A stretch of DNA of 64,000 bases from Rhodothermales bacterium. GTDB taxonomy: Bacteria; Bacteroidota; Rhodothermia; Rhodothermales; UBA10348. Under the pieces are notes generated by a model. That model had not been told where the DNA came from. It ran no database searches and saw nothing but the letters and a program-made list of their open reading frames with translations. A program made the translations under genes and the position numbers. Of the stretch, positions 9,852 through 16,689 are shown one piece after another. Position 1 is the first letter of the stretch; every line of letters starts with the position of its first letter. Location of the stretch: positions 62,001 to 126,000 of the forward strand of contig JAVJVN010000015.1 in NCBI GenBank assembly GCA_040221055.1, given 5' to 3'.

Positions 9852-9904
9852 TTGTAGTGTGAAGAGTCCGTAAAACGGTGAAGTCCGGTTGCCGGCATTC
9901 GATC

Positions 9905-9927
9905 CTGTTGTATATTACGGACAACAG
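9905..9927. promoter_or_regulatory. Perfect inverted repeat, candidate Rrf2/NsrR operator
   Basis: CTGTTGT, nine bases, then ACAACAG: two perfect 7-bp arms centred 33 bp before the ATG of the Rrf2-family gene. Length and symmetry suit a dimeric winged-helix regulator of the NsrR/IscR type. The AT-rich stretch just downstream (TATTATAA near 9938-9945) could be the -10 region, so binding here would block RNA polymerase. Autoregulation and control of the downstream nos genes is inferred, not shown. Confidence 0.6.
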
Positions 9928-9948
9928 AGTCGCTTATCTATTATAACC

Positions 9949-10380
9949 ATGCTGTCCAACGCCTGCCAATACGGACTCCGCGCCATGATCCATCTGGCCC
10001 AGCAACCGGAAGATGGATTCGTCCCGGTGCGTGAAATCAGCGCATCGCTGGACGTGTCGCACACGTTCCTGGCCAAGATCCTGCAGCAGCTGGTAGCCAA
10101 GGAACTGCTGGTGTCCTTGCGCGGACCGAGCGGCGGCGTACGGCTGGCCCATTCTGCAGACAAGATCCTGCTCAATGACATTGTCGTGGCCATCGACGGC
10201 CGGAAAGTACTTGAATCGTGTGTACTCGGTCTGCCCGGATGCGGCCACCAGGCGCCCTGCCCCATGCATGCCTCCTGGGCCGAAGTCCGGAACCGGTTCT
10301 GCAAGATGCTTGAGGAAACCAGCCTCCAGACGCTCGCCGCGAAGACCAAAGCCGCCGGATTCCGCCTGACCCCGCACTGA
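9949..10380 (+). CDS. Rrf2-family transcriptional regulator (NsrR-like)
   Basis: DNA-binding repressor/sensor of 143 residues. The winged helix spans about 1-70 (SNACQYGLRAMIHLA, then FLAKILQQLVAKELLVSLRGPSGG). Three cysteines, C91, C98 and C104, lie in the loop where NsrR and IscR bind an Fe-S cluster, so it probably senses NO or redox state through a cluster. Start set at ATG 9949; an upstream in-frame ATG would include the operator region. It lies 47 bp ahead of a cytochrome c and nosZ, so nos control is the likely role. NsrR against another Rrf2 subgroup cannot be settled from sequence alone. Confidence 0.85.
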   Translation: MLSNACQYGLRAMIHLAQQPEDGFVPVREISASLDVSHTFLAKILQQLVAKELLVSLRGPSGGVRLAHSADKILLNDIVVAIDGRKVLESCVLGLPGCGHQAPCPMHASWAEVRNRFCKMLEETSLQTLAAKTKAAGFRLTPH

Positions 10381-10427: not shown

Positions 10428-10895
10428 ATGAAGAAGATACTTCACCCCATCATGGCCCTCCCGCTCCTGCTCGCCGTCCTCCTCCTCGGCGCCTGCGGAT
10501 CCGAAGGTGGCTCTGACAGCAGCGCCGACGGCAGCGCACCCACCGCCGAATCCGGCCTGACCGCCGTCCAACTTGAGCACGGTCTCGGGCCGATTGCTCC
10601 GTTCGATCTCGGCCCCATTGACGCCGCCCTGGCCGAGCGGGGCGCGGACATCTTCAAAATGAAGTGCACGTCGTGCCACAAGATGGAGGGTCGCTATGTG
10701 GGTCCTCCACTGGGCGACATCACCGAGACCCGGTCGCCGGCCTACGTCATGAACATGATCCTGAATCCCCAGGAGATGATCACGGCGCATCCCACGGCCA
10801 AGAAGGTATTCGCCGAATACCTCACACCCATGCCCAATCAAAGCCTGAGCGAAGACGATGCACGCGCCGTGCTCGAATACCTCCGGACGCAATAA
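10428..10895 (+). CDS. Lipoprotein c-type cytochrome of the nos locus
   Basis: Membrane-anchored monohaem cytochrome c, 155 residues. Signal peptide with lipobox LGAC (lipidated C23), a Gly/Ser-rich tether to about residue 55, haem motif CTSCH at 80-84, and a probable axial Met at M135 in LTPMPNQ. It precedes nosZ by 19 bp. Such cytochromes accompany clade II nos clusters and are thought to pass electrons from the quinol-oxidising chain to NosZ, replacing NosR. Start at ATG 10428 chosen because the signal peptide begins there. Confidence 0.88.
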   Translation: MKKILHPIMALPLLLAVLLLGACGSEGGSDSSADGSAPTAESGLTAVQLEHGLGPIAPFDLGPIDAALAERGADIFKMKCTSCHKMEGRYVGPPLGDITETRSPAYVMNMILNPQEMITAHPTAKKVFAEYLTPMPNQSLSEDDARAVLEYLRTQ

Positions 10896-10914: not shown

Positions 10915-12870
10915 ATGAAACGCATCTCCATCAATCGAATCATCGTCGGCGTGGCCGCCACCCTGCTCATTGGAGCCCTGGCCACGTCGTGCCGTACCGC
11001 CACCGACCAATCCGGCCACGCGGACGCCGCCCAGGCCGTCTATGTGCCCCCGGGCAGCTACGACGAATTCTACTCCTTCATGTCCGGCGGATTCTCCGGC
11101 CAGGTCACCGTCATGGGCCTGCCCTCGGGGCGGCTGCTGAAGACCATCCCCGTGTTTTCCCAGCACGCCGAAAATGGCTGGGGATACGACGAGGAAACCA
11201 AAGCCATGCTGAACACCTCGTACGGATTCGTTCCGTGGGACGATTCGCATCATCCGCAGCTCAGCCAGACGAACGGCGTGCCGGACGGACGGTGGCTGTT
11301 CATCAACGGCAACAACACGCCGCGAATTGCGCGCATCGACCTGAAATCTTTTGAAACGGCTGAGATCGTGGAGATTCCGCTCTCCGCGGGCAACCACGCC
11401 TCGCCTTTCATCACCGAGAACTCGGAATACGTGGTGGCCGCCACGCGCTTCAGCGTGCCTATCCCGCAGCGGGACATTTCGATTTCCGAGTACAAGGAGC
11501 AGTTCAAGGGCACGATTTCGTTCGTACGGGCCGACCGTCCCGGCGAAATGGAAGTCGCCTTCCAGATCATGGTGCCCGGCTATGACTACGACCTGTCCAC
11601 CGCCGGTACGGGTCCCTCGCACGGCTGGGCCTTCCTGTCCACCTACAACGTAGAGCAGGCCAATACGCTCAAGGAAGTCAACGCCAGCCAGCGCGACAAG
11701 GATTTCATTGCCGCCGTGAACTGGAAGCGCGCCGAAGAGTGCGTCGAGGCGGGCAACTTCGAGGAATGGGATGTGACCTACCTGCGCAACGTGAAGCCGC
11801 ACCAGGGTATAGCCACCACCACGACGCTCTCCGGCAGCAAGATGCTGCAGCCCGCCGACTGCGACGGCCTGGTCTACTTTCTGCCGACGCCCAAGTCGCC
11901 CCACGGCGTGGACGTGGATCCCACGGGTGAATTCATTGTGGGCGGTGGCAAGCTGGCCACCGTGCTTCCTGTGCACTCCTTCACGAAGATGCTCAAGGCC
12001 ATCGAGGACAAGGAATTCGAAGGCATGGCCGATGGCATCCCCGTGCTGAAGTACGATGCGATCATTGCCGGGGAAGTTGAGAATGCCGGCCTCGGCCCGC
12101 TCCACACCCAGTTCGACGGCCGCGGCTCGGCCTACACCACGGCCTTCCTGTCCTCGGAAATCGTGAAGTGGGACATCGAGACGTTCACCGTCGTGGACCG
12201 CATTCCGGTCTATTATTCGGTGGGCCACCTCATGATTCCGGGCGGTGACAGCCGCCAGCCGGCCGGAAAATACCTGGTCGCGCTGAACAAGATCACGAAG
12301 GACCGCTACCTCCCGACCGGACCGGAACTGGCCCACTCGGCGCAGCTCATTGACATCTCCGGCGACAAGATGAAGATGCTCCTGGACTTCCCGACCATGG
12401 GCGAGCCGCACTACGCGCAGGCCATTGCGGCGGACCTCGTGACGCCGGATCAGATCAAGATCTATCGCCTTGAAGAAAACGAGCACCCGTACGCGACACT
12501 CTCCGAGGCCGACGCCCGGGTGGTCCGTGAAGGCACCGACGTGCACGTCTACATGACTTCCATCCGGAGCCACTTTGCGCCGGACAACATCGAGGGCATC
12601 CGCGTGGGCGATACGGTGTACTTCCACGTCACCAACCTGGAACAGGACTGGGATGTGCCGCACGGATTCGCCATGCTCGGCGCCAACGCCAGCGAACTGC
12701 TCATCATGCCGGGCGACACCCGCACGCTGGTCTGGAAACCGACCGCCGTGGGCGTCTATCCGTTCTACTGCACGGACTTCTGCTCGGCGCTCCACCAGGA
12801 GATGCAGGGCTACATCCGCGTATCGGACGCCGGCTCCAACGTCCCGATTTCATTCCACACCGGAGGCTGA
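10915..12870 (+). CDS. nosZ: Nitrous-oxide reductase, clade II (Sec-exported)
   Basis: Periplasmic copper enzyme reducing N2O to N2, the last step of denitrification. 651 residues. The N-terminus is an ordinary Sec signal (RIIVGVAATLLIGALATSC) without twin arginines, the mark of clade II. The seven-bladed propeller carries the CuZ histidine motifs, for example DDSHHP, PSHGW, SPHGVDV and HTQFDGRG. The C-terminal cupredoxin domain carries the CuA site C619-x3-C623-x3-H627-x2-M630 (CTDFCSALHQEM). Neighbours are the cytochrome c upstream and NosL, NosD, NosF and NosY downstream. The ATSC at the signal end is a weak lipobox, so lipid anchoring is possible. Confidence 0.97.
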   Translation: MKRISINRIIVGVAATLLIGALATSCRTATDQSGHADAAQAVYVPPGSYDEFYSFMSGGFSGQVTVMGLPSGRLLKTIPVFSQHAENGWGYDEETKAMLNTSYGFVPWDDSHHPQLSQTNGVPDGRWLFINGNNTPRIARIDLKSFETAEIVEIPLSAGNHASPFITENSEYVVAATRFSVPIPQRDISISEYKEQFKGTISFVRADRPGEMEVAFQIMVPGYDYDLSTAGTGPSHGWAFLSTYNVEQANTLKEVNASQRDKDFIAAVNWKRAEECVEAGNFEEWDVTYLRNVKPHQGIATTTTLSGSKMLQPADCDGLVYFLPTPKSPHGVDVDPTGEFIVGGGKLATVLPVHSFTKMLKAIEDKEFEGMADGIPVLKYDAIIAGEVENAGLGPLHTQFDGRGSAYTTAFLSSEIVKWDIETFTVVDRIPVYYSVGHLMIPGGDSRQPAGKYLVALNKITKDRYLPTGPELAHSAQLIDISGDKMKMLLDFPTMGEPHYAQAIAADLVTPDQIKIYRLEENEHPYATLSEADARVVREGTDVHVYMTSIRSHFAPDNIEGIRVGDTVYFHVTNLEQDWDVPHGFAMLGANASELLIMPGDTRTLVWKPTAVGVYPFYCTDFCSALHQEMQGYIRVSDAGSNVPISFHTGG

Positions 12871-12873
12871 GTC

Positions 12874-13947
12874 ATGACCACCCGCAGTCGACTCCTGACG
12901 GCCCTCGCAGGCCTCATGCTCATCACCATGTATTTCTTCCCCCTGTGGAGGATTACGCTCGAAGCACCGCAGTACCCCGAAGGCCTCGGCCTCAGGATCA
13001 TGCTGTCGGATGTCCGGGGAGTGAACGAGTTCGACCTGCAGAACATCAACAACCTGAACCACTACATCGGCATGCAGCGGATTGAACCGGATGCCATTCC
13101 GGAGCTCAAGATCATGCCGTGGGCCATTGCCTTCCTGATTGCCGGCGCCTTCGGCGTCGCGCTCCTGGGGCGGCGGCGCTGGCTCACGACCTGGGTCGTG
13201 CTGTTCGGCCTGCTGTCGCTGGTCGGCCTGGTGGATTTCTGGTTGTGGGAGTACGACTACGGGCACAACCTGGACACGTCGACGGCCGCCATCGTGGTGC
13301 CCGGCATGTCCTACCAGCCGCCCCTCATTGGATCGAAGCAACTGCTCAACTTCAAAGCCCACTCCTGGCCGGGAGTGGGCGGTTGGGCGGCCTTCGCTGC
13401 ATTGGGGCTTGGCATGGTGGCGTGGGGGCTCGATCGGCCGAAGCGCCGCCGGAAATTCAGCGCCAAACCGTCCGCCGGTGCGGCCCTCGGCGCCCTGGCC
13501 CTGCCCCTGCTCCTCGTGGCCGGCTGCACGCCGGAACCCGAGCCCTTCCATCTCGGCCAGGACGAGGGTGCCTACTGCCGGATGACCATTGACGATGCCC
13601 GGTTCGCCTCGCAGATCGTCATGAAAACCGGACGGGTATACAAATTCGACTCCATCGAATGCCTGTCCCGCTACCTGGCCGAACAGGTCCAGGATGAAAC
13701 CGACGTGCATTCCGTCTGGGTGTCCGACGCCGCCGAGCCCGGCCAGCTGGTGAACGTCACCGAGGCCGTCTTCGTGCAGCACGAACGACTCCGCTCGCCC
13801 ATGGGCGGGGGATGGGCCGCGTTCGCATCGGTGGCCTCGGCGCAGGAAACCGTCCCGGACATCGATCCCGACGCGGACGTGCACACCTGGTTGTCCATGC
13901 GCCGCGTGAGCCACGCATCACTCGGAACGAGACCGTCGGGTATGTAA
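12874..13947 (+). CDS. Fusion of a nos-cluster multi-pass membrane protein with NosL copper chaperone
   Basis: 357-residue protein in the nosL position, 3 bp after nosZ. Residues 1-185 hold four predicted TM helices (about 7-25, 80-99, 104-125, 166-186) separated by a large loop, then a basic stretch KRRRK. Residues 201-218 look like a complete lipoprotein signal (GALALPLLLVAGC), followed by NosL with the Cu(I) motif YCRM (C235, M237) and a second cysteine C263. NosL supplies copper to the CuZ site of NosZ. NosL is normally a free lipoprotein; here its signal sits in frame inside a longer protein with no stop. An internal start could also yield separate NosL. Confidence 0.82.
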   Translation: MTTRSRLLTALAGLMLITMYFFPLWRITLEAPQYPEGLGLRIMLSDVRGVNEFDLQNINNLNHYIGMQRIEPDAIPELKIMPWAIAFLIAGAFGVALLGRRRWLTTWVVLFGLLSLVGLVDFWLWEYDYGHNLDTSTAAIVVPGMSYQPPLIGSKQLLNFKAHSWPGVGGWAAFAALGLGMVAWGLDRPKRRRKFSAKPSAGAALGALALPLLLVAGCTPEPEPFHLGQDEGAYCRMTIDDARFASQIVMKTGRVYKFDSIECLSRYLAEQVQDETDVHSVWVSDAAEPGQLVNVTEAVFVQHERLRSPMGGGWAAFASVASAQETVPDIDPDADVHTWLSMRRVSHASLGTRPSGM

Positions 13948-13949
13948 TC

Positions 13950-15167
13950 ATGTTTGTACGGGTGATGCTCTTCGTGGCGCTGGCCTTCGCCGCCGCGCCG
14001 GCCATGCCCGCCCCGGCCCAATCGCTCGCCGAGCGCCTGGAACGCGCCGCGCCCTACGATACGCTCCGCATTCCCGCCGGGACCTGGACCGAGACCACGC
14101 TCCACATCCGGAAGCCGGTCGTACTCGTGGGCGAGCCGGGAGCCCGGCTGAAAGGCGACGGATCGCACGAGTTGATCGTGATCCTGAGCGACGACGTGAC
14201 CATCCAGGGGCTGGACCTGTCCGGCGTCGGTCGGACGTTCATGGAAGACCGGGCGGCCATCCGCGTGCAGGATGCATCGCGCTGCCGGATAGCCGACAAT
14301 ACCTTCAGCGATGTGTTTTTCGGCGTGTACATGGCCCGGGCGGCCGACTGCACGGTGTCGGGCAACACGCTGAGCGCCAATTTCGAGCGCGAAACCACAG
14401 GCGGCAACGCCATCCATTCGTGGTACAGCAACCGGCTGCATATCGTAGATAATGTCATTACCGGATTCCGGGACGGCATCTACCTCGAGTTCACGAACGA
14501 TTCGGAGGTGGCCGGCAACCGCTCGGACCACAACCTGCGGTACGGATTGCATTTCATGTTCTCGGACCGCTGCAGCTACGACCGCAATTCGTTCTCGGAC
14601 AACAGGGCCGGTGTGGCGGTCATGTACGCCGACGGGTTGTCCATGCGGGACAACACGTTCCAGCGGGCCTGGGGATCATCGGCCTACGGCCTCCTGCTCA
14701 AGGAAATCCGGCGGGGCGAAATCCTGGGCAACACGTTCCAGGGCAATTCCGTGGGCATCCTCATGGAATCGACCGATGCCATGGATTTCCACGGCAACCA
14801 GTTCCTCGAAAACGGTTGGGCCATCAAGATGATGGCGAGCTCCATCGGCAACACCTTTGAAGACAACGTCTTTGCCGGTAATACCTTCGACATCGCCACG
14901 AACAGCCGCTCGTCCACCAGTCGCTTCACGGCCAATTACTGGGACCGCTACACGGGCTACGACCTGGACCGCGACGGCTTCGGCGACGTCCCCTTCCGGC
15001 CCGTTTCGCTCTTTTCCGTACTCGCCGAGCGACACGAGGCCATGCTCTACCTGTACCGCAGCGTCCTCGTGGATCTGCTCAACACGGCCGAAAGCCTGCT
15101 CCCGGTGCTCACGCCCGTTGACCTGGCCGACCACCGTCCGCGCATGGTGCTACCAACAACAAGATGA
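13950..15167 (+). CDS. nosD: NosD, periplasmic NosZ maturation protein
   Basis: Periplasmic right-handed beta-helix protein required with NosFY for CuZ site assembly. 405 residues with a signal peptide (LFVALAFAAAPAMPAPAQS) and many parallel beta-helix coils of the CASH/NosD type (for example NRLHIVDNVITGFRDGIYLE and YGLLLKEIRRGEILGNTFQG), ending after the conserved NYWDRYTGYDLDRDGFGDVPF. Start at ATG 13950, two bases after the NosL stop; the longer upstream reading frame lies inside the NosL gene. The stop overlaps the nosF start (ATGA). Confidence 0.93.
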   Translation: MFVRVMLFVALAFAAAPAMPAPAQSLAERLERAAPYDTLRIPAGTWTETTLHIRKPVVLVGEPGARLKGDGSHELIVILSDDVTIQGLDLSGVGRTFMEDRAAIRVQDASRCRIADNTFSDVFFGVYMARAADCTVSGNTLSANFERETTGGNAIHSWYSNRLHIVDNVITGFRDGIYLEFTNDSEVAGNRSDHNLRYGLHFMFSDRCSYDRNSFSDNRAGVAVMYADGLSMRDNTFQRAWGSSAYGLLLKEIRRGEILGNTFQGNSVGILMESTDAMDFHGNQFLENGWAIKMMASSIGNTFEDNVFAGNTFDIATNSRSSTSRFTANYWDRYTGYDLDRDGFGDVPFRPVSLFSVLAERHEAMLYLYRSVLVDLLNTAESLLPVLTPVDLADHRPRMVLPTTR

Positions 15168-15901
15168 AACTCCTTCCACACGATACGCCGCCCATCTCCA
15201 TCAGCGGGCTCATGAAATCCTTCGGCACGAACCAGGTGCTGGCGGGCATTGACCTCACGTTCGGTGCGGGTGAAACCACCGCCATCGTCGGTCCGAACGG
15301 CGCCGGGAAAACGACGCTCATCAAGAGCCTGCTGGGGCTCGTCCACCCGGATGCCGGTGTCCTGGAAGTCGGAGGCCTGCCAGCCGGGTCGGACGGCGAC
15401 TACCGCCGACTCATCGGATACATGCCGCAAAGTGCCCGTTTCCCCGACGGGATGTCGGCGCGCGACATGATTGCACTCGTCCGCCGCCTGCGTGACCCGA
15501 AGACACCCATCGATACCTCGCTCATCCGCACCCTCGGGCTTTCCGGCGAAATGGACAAGCCCTTCCGGACCCTGTCGGGCGGAACGCGGCAGAAAGTATC
15601 GGCGGTCCTCGCGTTCATGTACACGCCGCCCATCTATATCCTGGACGAGCCTACGGCCGGTCTGGACCCCGTGTCCAGCGCGGCCCTGAAGGACCACATC
15701 CTCGCGGTCCGCGAACGCGGGGCCACCGTGCTCCTGACGTCGCATGTCATGGCCGACCTCGAAGAGCTCTGCGATCGCATTGTCTTCCTTTTGGACGGAC
15801 GCGTCCGCTTCGACGGATCGTTGTCGGATTTGCGCGCCCGCACCGGCCAACCCCGGCTCGAACGCGCCATTGCCCGCATCCTGGAGGGAGAAGCCGCATG
15901 A
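15164..15901 (+). CDS. nosF: NosF, ABC transporter ATPase for NosZ maturation
   Basis: Cytoplasmic ATPase of the NosDFY complex. 245 residues with Walker A GPNGAGKTT, signature LSGGTRQK and Walker B YILDEPTAGLDP, followed by the switch His in LTSHVM. Starts inside the nosD stop and its own stop overlaps nosY, so D, F and Y should be made in fixed ratio. The complex is thought to export a sulfur species or remodel NosZ for CuZ formation; the substrate is a family-level inference. Confidence 0.93.
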   Translation: MKLLPHDTPPISISGLMKSFGTNQVLAGIDLTFGAGETTAIVGPNGAGKTTLIKSLLGLVHPDAGVLEVGGLPAGSDGDYRRLIGYMPQSARFPDGMSARDMIALVRRLRDPKTPIDTSLIRTLGLSGEMDKPFRTLSGGTRQKVSAVLAFMYTPPIYILDEPTAGLDPVSSAALKDHILAVRERGATVLLTSHVMADLEELCDRIVFLLDGRVRFDGSLSDLRARTGQPRLERAIARILEGEAA

Positions 15902-16689
15902 ACACCGTCCAAACCATCTTCCGCTTCCAGGTCGGCGATGCACTCCGCAGCCGCTGGCTCATCCTGCACTTCCTGCTGTTCCTGTTGCTGACCGAAGGGC
16001 TGCTGCTGGCCTCCGGCTTCTCCGACAAGGCCCTTGTCAGCCTCATCAATGTGGTCCTGCTGCTGGTCCCCCTCATCAGTCTCGTGTTCGGGGTCATCCA
16101 CCAGTACAACGCCCGCGAATTCGTGGAGCTGCTGCTGACCCAACCGGTGCGTCGCCGCGACCTGTTTGCCGGCCTGCTGGCGGGAATAGGCGTGCCCATG
16201 ACGCTGTCGTTCGTCCTCGGGATATTCCTTCCGTTCGCCTGGCACGGCGGACTCGACCCGGTGCAGGGCTCGCGGTTGTTCGCGCTGCTCGGACTCGGAT
16301 CCGTGCTCACGTTGACCTGCATTTCGGTCGCCGTAGCCGTCTCCATCCGGCAGACGGATCGCATCCGCGGCATTGGCCTCGCGCTGTTCCTGTGGCTGGC
16401 CTACGCCGTGCTGTTCGACGGCGCCATCATGCTGAGCGTCGTGCTGCTGGACCACTGGCCCATCGAGAAGGCCATGATCGTGGTAATGCTCATGAACCCC
16501 GTCGACATCATCCGCCTGGTCCTGCTGCAGGTGTTCGATGCCGCCGCCATGATGGGCTACACCGGCGCCGTGTTCACCCGATTCTTCGAAGATGGCATGG
16601 GATACGCCGTGGCCGCGACCGCCCTCTCGTTCTGGCTCATCCTGCCCACCTGGCTGGCCCGCCACGCATTCCTGCGGAAAGATTTCTGA
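15898..16689 (+). CDS. nosY: NosY, ABC transporter permease for NosZ maturation
   Basis: Integral membrane partner of NosF, 263 residues with about six TM helices (for example LILHFLLFLLLTEGLLLASGF, VVLLLVPLISLVFGVI and GIGLALFLWLAYAVLF). The second cytoplasmic stretch carries the conserved REFVELLLTQPVRRRDLFAG segment of the NosY/ABC-2 family. Last gene of the nos operon; the 215-bp repeat element follows 13 bp later. Confidence 0.92.
   Translation: MNTVQTIFRFQVGDALRSRWLILHFLLFLLLTEGLLLASGFSDKALVSLINVVLLLVPLISLVFGVIHQYNAREFVELLLTQPVRRRDLFAGLLAGIGVPMTLSFVLGIFLPFAWHGGLDPVQGSRLFALLGLGSVLTLTCISVAVAVSIRQTDRIRGIGLALFLWLAYAVLFDGAIMLSVVLLDHWPIEKAMIVVMLMNPVDIIRLVLLQVFDAAAMMGYTGAVFTRFFEDGMGYAVAATALSFWLILPTWLARHAFLRKDF

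Follow-up and report, generated by a model that had tools for sequence, protein, structure and literature searches.

Introduction

The greenhouse gas nitrous oxide (N2O) has an important sink in the clade II N2O reducers. Wolinella succinogenes requires the membrane protein NosB in order to respire N2O (Hein 2017, cited in the consulted parts of PMC9697520 and PMC11388526), and NosB proteins possess four (or six) transmembrane (TM) helices and are encoded adjacent to nosZ in the clade II cluster (PMC11388526). A fusion of NosB with the copper chaperone NosL, termed NosB-L, has been described in Flavobacterium azooxidireducens (PMC9697520) and is attributed to Dyadobacter fermentans by van Spanning 2011 and Hein 2017, as the same parts of PMC9697520 cite them. 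Here we analyze a gene of this kind in a 64,000-nucleotide stretch of the genome of a Rhodothermales bacterium (GCA_040221055.1, contig JAVJVN010000015.1, positions 62,001 to 126,000 of the forward strand; hereafter the window). The gene lies between nosZ and nosD and joins the two parts in a single frame, and its NosB half has four TM helices and adjoins nosZ in a clade II cluster. The fusion itself is already known and is not unusual across Bacteroidota and related phyla. Our comparison centers on an internal lipobox between the two halves, whose conservation points to processing of the chain by lipoprotein enzymes. Neither this invariant lipobox nor the processing that it implies is mentioned in the parts of the NosB-L literature that we examined, and a literature search, with subscription papers such as Hein 2017 outside its reach, returned no paper on the internal lipobox.

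Results

The initial annotation of this DNA, made from the sequence alone, had described one uninterrupted frame encoding four TM helices, a basic stretch, a lipobox and a NosL domain with the motif YCRM, and this description is confirmed by the open reading frame, an AlphaFold2 (AF2) model and the Pfam profile PF05573. The profile matches residues 229-325 (E 4.4e-10; 40.4 bits against a gathering cut-off of 24), with YCRM at residues 234-237. We identify the N-terminal half as NosB because it contains the published motifs LNHYIGM (residues 61-67) and YGHN (residues 129-132) and because its place after nosZ fits, which also gives a name to the separate membrane gene that had been guessed for clade II clusters. 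In an alignment of 105 fusions, most of LNHYIGM, together with G130 and H131, is invariant or nearly so, and C235 and M237 of the NosL copper motif CxM are invariant. In a Pfam profile search, no family clearly covered the NosB half; matches of the fusion protein to DUF4131 (Pfam) and invert_tail (NCBIfam) were both below cut-off and were rejected, DUF4131 weakly matching 18 of the 105 fusions with a best E of 4.6e-5. The copper motif is longer, CxxCxM, in the NosL of most fusions (residues 232-237 here, 13567-13584). Its second Cys and its Met are invariant. The column of its first Cys, occupied by G232 in the window, is Cys in most of the 105 rows, whereas in one neighbour and in the family to which the window belongs it holds Gly, Asp or some other residue.

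Between the two halves, a basic loop (residues 187-195, DRPKRRRKF) leads into a hydrophobic segment and the lipobox LVAGC, with V at -3, A at -2 and G at -1 of Cys218. A positive n-region, a hydrophobic h-region and a lipobox of the form [LV][ASTVI][GAS]C, the elements by which a lipoprotein signal is defined (PMC8048626), are therefore all present, and the signal departs from an N-terminal position, as it starts around residue 187 of the sole frame. In a set of 109 distinct fusions retrieved from public genomes, a Cys stands 17-18 residues before CxM in all 109. The residue at -1 is Ser in 61, Gly in 40, Ala in 7 and Asn in one; the 16 residues before the Cys are always hydrophobic and uniform in this respect (mean Kyte-Doolittle hydropathy 1.77), and the stretch ahead of the hydrophobic run is net positive in all but one (108/109). 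In the alignment, the column of Cys218 is Cys in 105 of 105 rows and position 217 is restricted to S, G, A or N. Residues 183-216 are poorly conserved, the commonest residue seldom exceeding half of the rows. Within clades that contain only fused genes, an average column has undergone about 28 substitutions and the Cys was never lost, and it is encoded by both of its codons (68 TGC and 41 TGT among the fusions). The same lipobox is carried by NosL proteins from split genes. This conservation indicates that the internal lipobox is under selection: an invariant Cys with a small residue at -1, set amid variable surroundings, is the pattern that lipoprotein enzymes need (consensus in PMC8048626), and a simple tether could do without it. 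The bacterium encodes one Lgt and one LspA (signal peptidase II). No second NosL domain was found in its genome, and lipidated NosL, if made, must therefore derive from the fusion chain.

The same in-frame fusion is present in three of three congeners (65-68% identity) and in five more genomes of the family, all separate assemblies, which together with the 109 distinct genes bears out the suggestion that the fusion is real. Comparison of related genomes for separate genes, which had been proposed as a check, gave both states in the order: 20 of its 114 genomes have the two parts fused in one frame and 10 have them as split genes that are adjacent or almost adjacent. Relatives with a stop separating the two halves had been named as a finding that would count against the fusion; this applies only half-way, as many relatives are indeed split but the fusion recurs, so no sequencing error is involved. 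A scan of public genomes found at least 592 related stretches, and the retrieved set comprised 124 fused loci, 109 of them distinct, and 60 split loci, which were chosen by likeness to fusions, so that the fused share is no estimate of prevalence. Fused loci come from Bacteroidota, Ignavibacteria, Kapabacteria, Gemmatimonadota and Zixibacteria, and the cultured carriers among them include Runella, Pedobacter, Niabella and Zhouia; a plasmid search gave few relatives. One NosL-like match, in genome G006, lies inside a sensor histidine kinase and was discarded as a chance match. A tree was computed for 109 fused and 58 split rows (167 in total) from NosB and NosL columns with the lipobox and most of the linker excluded. 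On it the fused or split state changes a minimum of 27 times, with nine changes forced by well-supported branches; the tree is unrooted, and these counts do not separate fusion from fission. In split clusters the NosL start usually falls between -60 and +70 bases from the NosB stop, so one small insertion or deletion or a change at the stop can switch the state. Given the repeated changes on the tree and the shared lipobox of split NosL, fused and split genes seem to give equivalent products.

The AF2 model, built from the 105 fusions, has a mean predicted local distance difference test score of 92 and places TM helices at residues 3-20, 77-98, 101-131 and 168-186, with a periplasmic sheet in the NosB half formed by strands 25-31, 34-42, 47-49, 153-157 and 160-166. 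These are followed by a loose linker (187-201), a separate helix (202-215) just before Cys218, and the NosL domain, which aligns with the solved NosL 7og7 at Z 14.9 (VIA-align), in agreement with a sequence search of the PDB. The NosB half (residues 1-197, 12874-13464) resembles claudins, TARPs, GSG1L and a designed claudin fold in its four helices and sheet (PDB 8oyv, 6ov3 and 9s41 among them), with VIA-align Z of 9.3-11.3 and a root-mean-square deviation of about 4 over about 148 residues, a Z range that helical bundles can reach and that is below the tool's safe level. A Foldseek search gave a best E of 1.4e-3, and claudin-type chains dominate the list of structural matches. Identity to these proteins is about 10%, and the likeness seen is one of predicted fold; the NosB half is thus predicted to be claudin-like in fold, and no more than that. 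The solved structures that match it are eukaryotic or designed.

The fusion gene starts 3 bases after nosZ and ends 2 bases before nosD, within a clade II nos cluster in the order Rrf2, cytochrome c, nosZ, nosB-nosL fusion, nosD, nosF and nosY (Table 1).

Table 1. Positions in the window of the fusion gene, its parts and the neighbouring genes.
Feature	Coordinates	Strand	Basis and remarks
Rrf2-family regulator	9889..10380	+	PF02082, E 1.5e-31
c-type cytochrome, lipoprotein-type signal, upstream of nosZ	10431..10895	+	PF00034, E 2.8e-11
nosZ, Sec-type (clade II) nitrous oxide reductase	10915..12870	+	TIGR04246, 937.7 bits
nosB-nosL fusion gene	12874..13947	+	357 amino acids plus stop; ATG to TAA, single open frame
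NosB half, residues 1-190	12874..13443	+	AF2 model; published motifs; structure alignment
Basic linker, cytoplasmic, residues 187-201	13432..13476	+	AF2 model; length differs among fusions
Fifth helix: signal-peptide h-region and lipobox, residues 202-217, ending LVAG	13477..13524	+	AF2 model; lipobox statistics
Cys218 codon	13525..13527	+	Lipobox Cys; predicted Lgt/LspA site; invariant in all fusions
NosL part	13525..13944	+	PF05573; NosL fold match; mature lipoprotein if cut at Cys218
CxM copper motif, residues 235-237	13576-13584	+	In NosL part
nosD	13950..15167	+	TIGR04247, 400.5 bits
nosF, ABC ATPase	15164..15901	+	PF00005
nosY, ABC permease	15898..16689	+	Weak ABC2_membrane_2 match below curated cut-off; conserved position

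Lipobox-type signals are also seen upstream in the cluster. The NosZ N-terminus (10915-10990) opens with one, MKRISINRIIVGVAATLLIGALATSC, and similar signals begin the NosZ of about 35 relatives in the order, unlike the Sec/signal peptidase I signal that papers describe for clade II NosZ; NosZ here may be a membrane-anchored lipoprotein. The neighbouring cytochrome c has the lipoprotein-type signal LLLGAC, as have nearly all of its relatives, and the whole electron-delivery unit may be lipid-anchored. Elsewhere in the order, several genomes of one family (f13, L063-L068) carry nosZ, a divergent nosB, nosD and nosF, and tblastn found no NosL in the stretch read; copper delivery in these genomes may use another protein.

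Discussion

Our analysis rests on a set of computed observations, namely the single frame, the identity of its halves as NosB and NosL, the topology model, a lipobox that stays invariant across changes of state, and the presence of Lgt and LspA. On balance we think it likely that the gene encodes a NosB-NosL polyprotein, which Lgt and signal peptidase II would process at the internal lipobox. One chain would be translated, with the four-TM NosB leaving its C-terminus in the cytosol and the basic loop followed by a fifth helix (TM5) that returns to the periplasm and would serve as a complete lipoprotein signal, with Cys218 at its end. At the periplasmic face, Lgt would diacylate this residue, and signal peptidase II would then cut between Gly217 and Cys218. 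The two products, formed in a 1:1 ratio, would be NosB that retains TM5 and a NosL that is a copper chaperone with the usual lipid anchor. The released NosL would serve the NosDFY machinery that helps mature NosZ, and the benefit of the arrangement may be 1:1 supply or co-insertion. Of the outcomes that the initial annotation had envisaged, we favour cleavage at C218, since across the 109 fusions the lipobox Cys never changes and the residues around it do.

Several points weigh against this proposal. The cut at Cys218 is a step that we infer from computation, and Lgt and LspA are known to act on N-terminal signals. In addition, a strict [LVI][ASTVI][GAS]C pattern fits only 51 of the 109 fusions, although split NosL proteins do no better (28 of 59). 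The sampling by similarity to fusions may under-represent odd ones, and the Cys was located through its distance to CxM, though the spacing is nonetheless 17 or 18 every time. As for the wider proposition, we would put its chances at about even. It holds that an internal signal following a claudin-fold membrane protein is processed by Lgt and signal peptidase II, which frees a copper chaperone, and that this device, many times gained or lost among Bacteroidota and related phyla, has gone unnoticed in a fusion already described.

The main rival is a permanent tether, in which the chain stays uncut, TM5 remains as a fifth TM helix and NosL stays bound to the inner membrane next to NosB, with Cys218 lipidated or not. 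Such a tether of copper delivery to the membrane complex had been suggested from the sequence, and the topology fits it; fusion genes often signify lasting association, and NosB-L is spoken of as one protein combining both functions in the consulted parts of PMC9697520. A tether, however, needs a hydrophobic helix and not a Cys preceded by a small residue, both of which are kept in all fusions, and the frequent switching between fused and split genes speaks against the need for a physical link. We accordingly hold this explanation to be a serious one that is nevertheless rather unlikely.

Two products could also arise if NosL were made separately from an internal translation start. In the window, M181 (ATG, 37 codons before Cys218), which falls inside TM4, could begin MVAWGLDRPKRRRK...LLVAGC, and an ATG is present at signal-peptide distance, 14-30 codons ahead of the Cys, in 30 of the 109 fusions. 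Against this, the positions of candidate starts are not conserved, a Shine-Dalgarno-like stretch accompanies only one candidate ATG, and 61 of 109 fusions lack any in-frame ATG, GTG or TTG 14-30 codons before the Cys, for which reason internal initiation cannot be the general mechanism. This route, also raised in the initial annotation, is improbable. It is similarly hard to credit that Cys218 is kept for another task than lipidation, such as the passage of copper from NosB to NosL. The literature ties NosL and NosB to copper management (consulted parts of PMC9697520), and a membrane-face Cys could relay Cu(I), but this leaves unexplained both the limit to S, G or A at -1 and the same lipobox in split NosL, and we give it very little weight. 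Loss of a stop codon through an error in assembly or sequencing, which the commonness of split genes in the same order might suggest, has a negligible chance, since the frame is intact in separate assemblies of three congeners and five genomes of the same family and the fusion recurs in many other distinct genes (109 in total).

Should the polyprotein be cut, NosB and NosL would be supplied in a constant proportion and inserted next to each other, which would link NosB with copper delivery, and internal signals would be established as substrates of the lipoprotein enzymes. Should it stay uncut, NosL would have a permanent place next to NosB at the inner membrane. Either outcome helps to define the role of NosB, and the cultured carriers make the question of processing a practical one to address.

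A precedent for the proposed processing is FbcH, the cytochrome b/c1 polyprotein of Bradyrhizobium, in which one gene encodes a polytopic protein followed by an internal signal and the product is cut into two membrane-bound proteins. FbcH is cut by signal peptidase I and receives no lipid, whereas signal peptidase II is proposed for NosB-NosL. The NosB-L proteins of F. azooxidireducens and D. fermentans share with the window gene the same halves in the same order, the position between nosZ and nosD, and the LNHYIGM and YGHN motifs (consulted parts of PMC9697520); those parts make no mention of a lipobox or of processing, whereas the lipobox is invariant over the 109 fusions compared here. The NosB of W. 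succinogenes, compared by description only, likewise has four TM helices, a place beside nosZ in a clade II cluster and the published motifs, and differs from the protein studied here in that the latter is joined to NosL. Finally, the stand-alone NosL lipoproteins of Paracoccus and Achromobacter (PDB 7og7, 7osf-7osj and 7znq) share the fold, the CxM motif and a lipobox before the domain, but their signal is N-terminal, whereas in the fusion it is internal and lies behind a four-TM protein.
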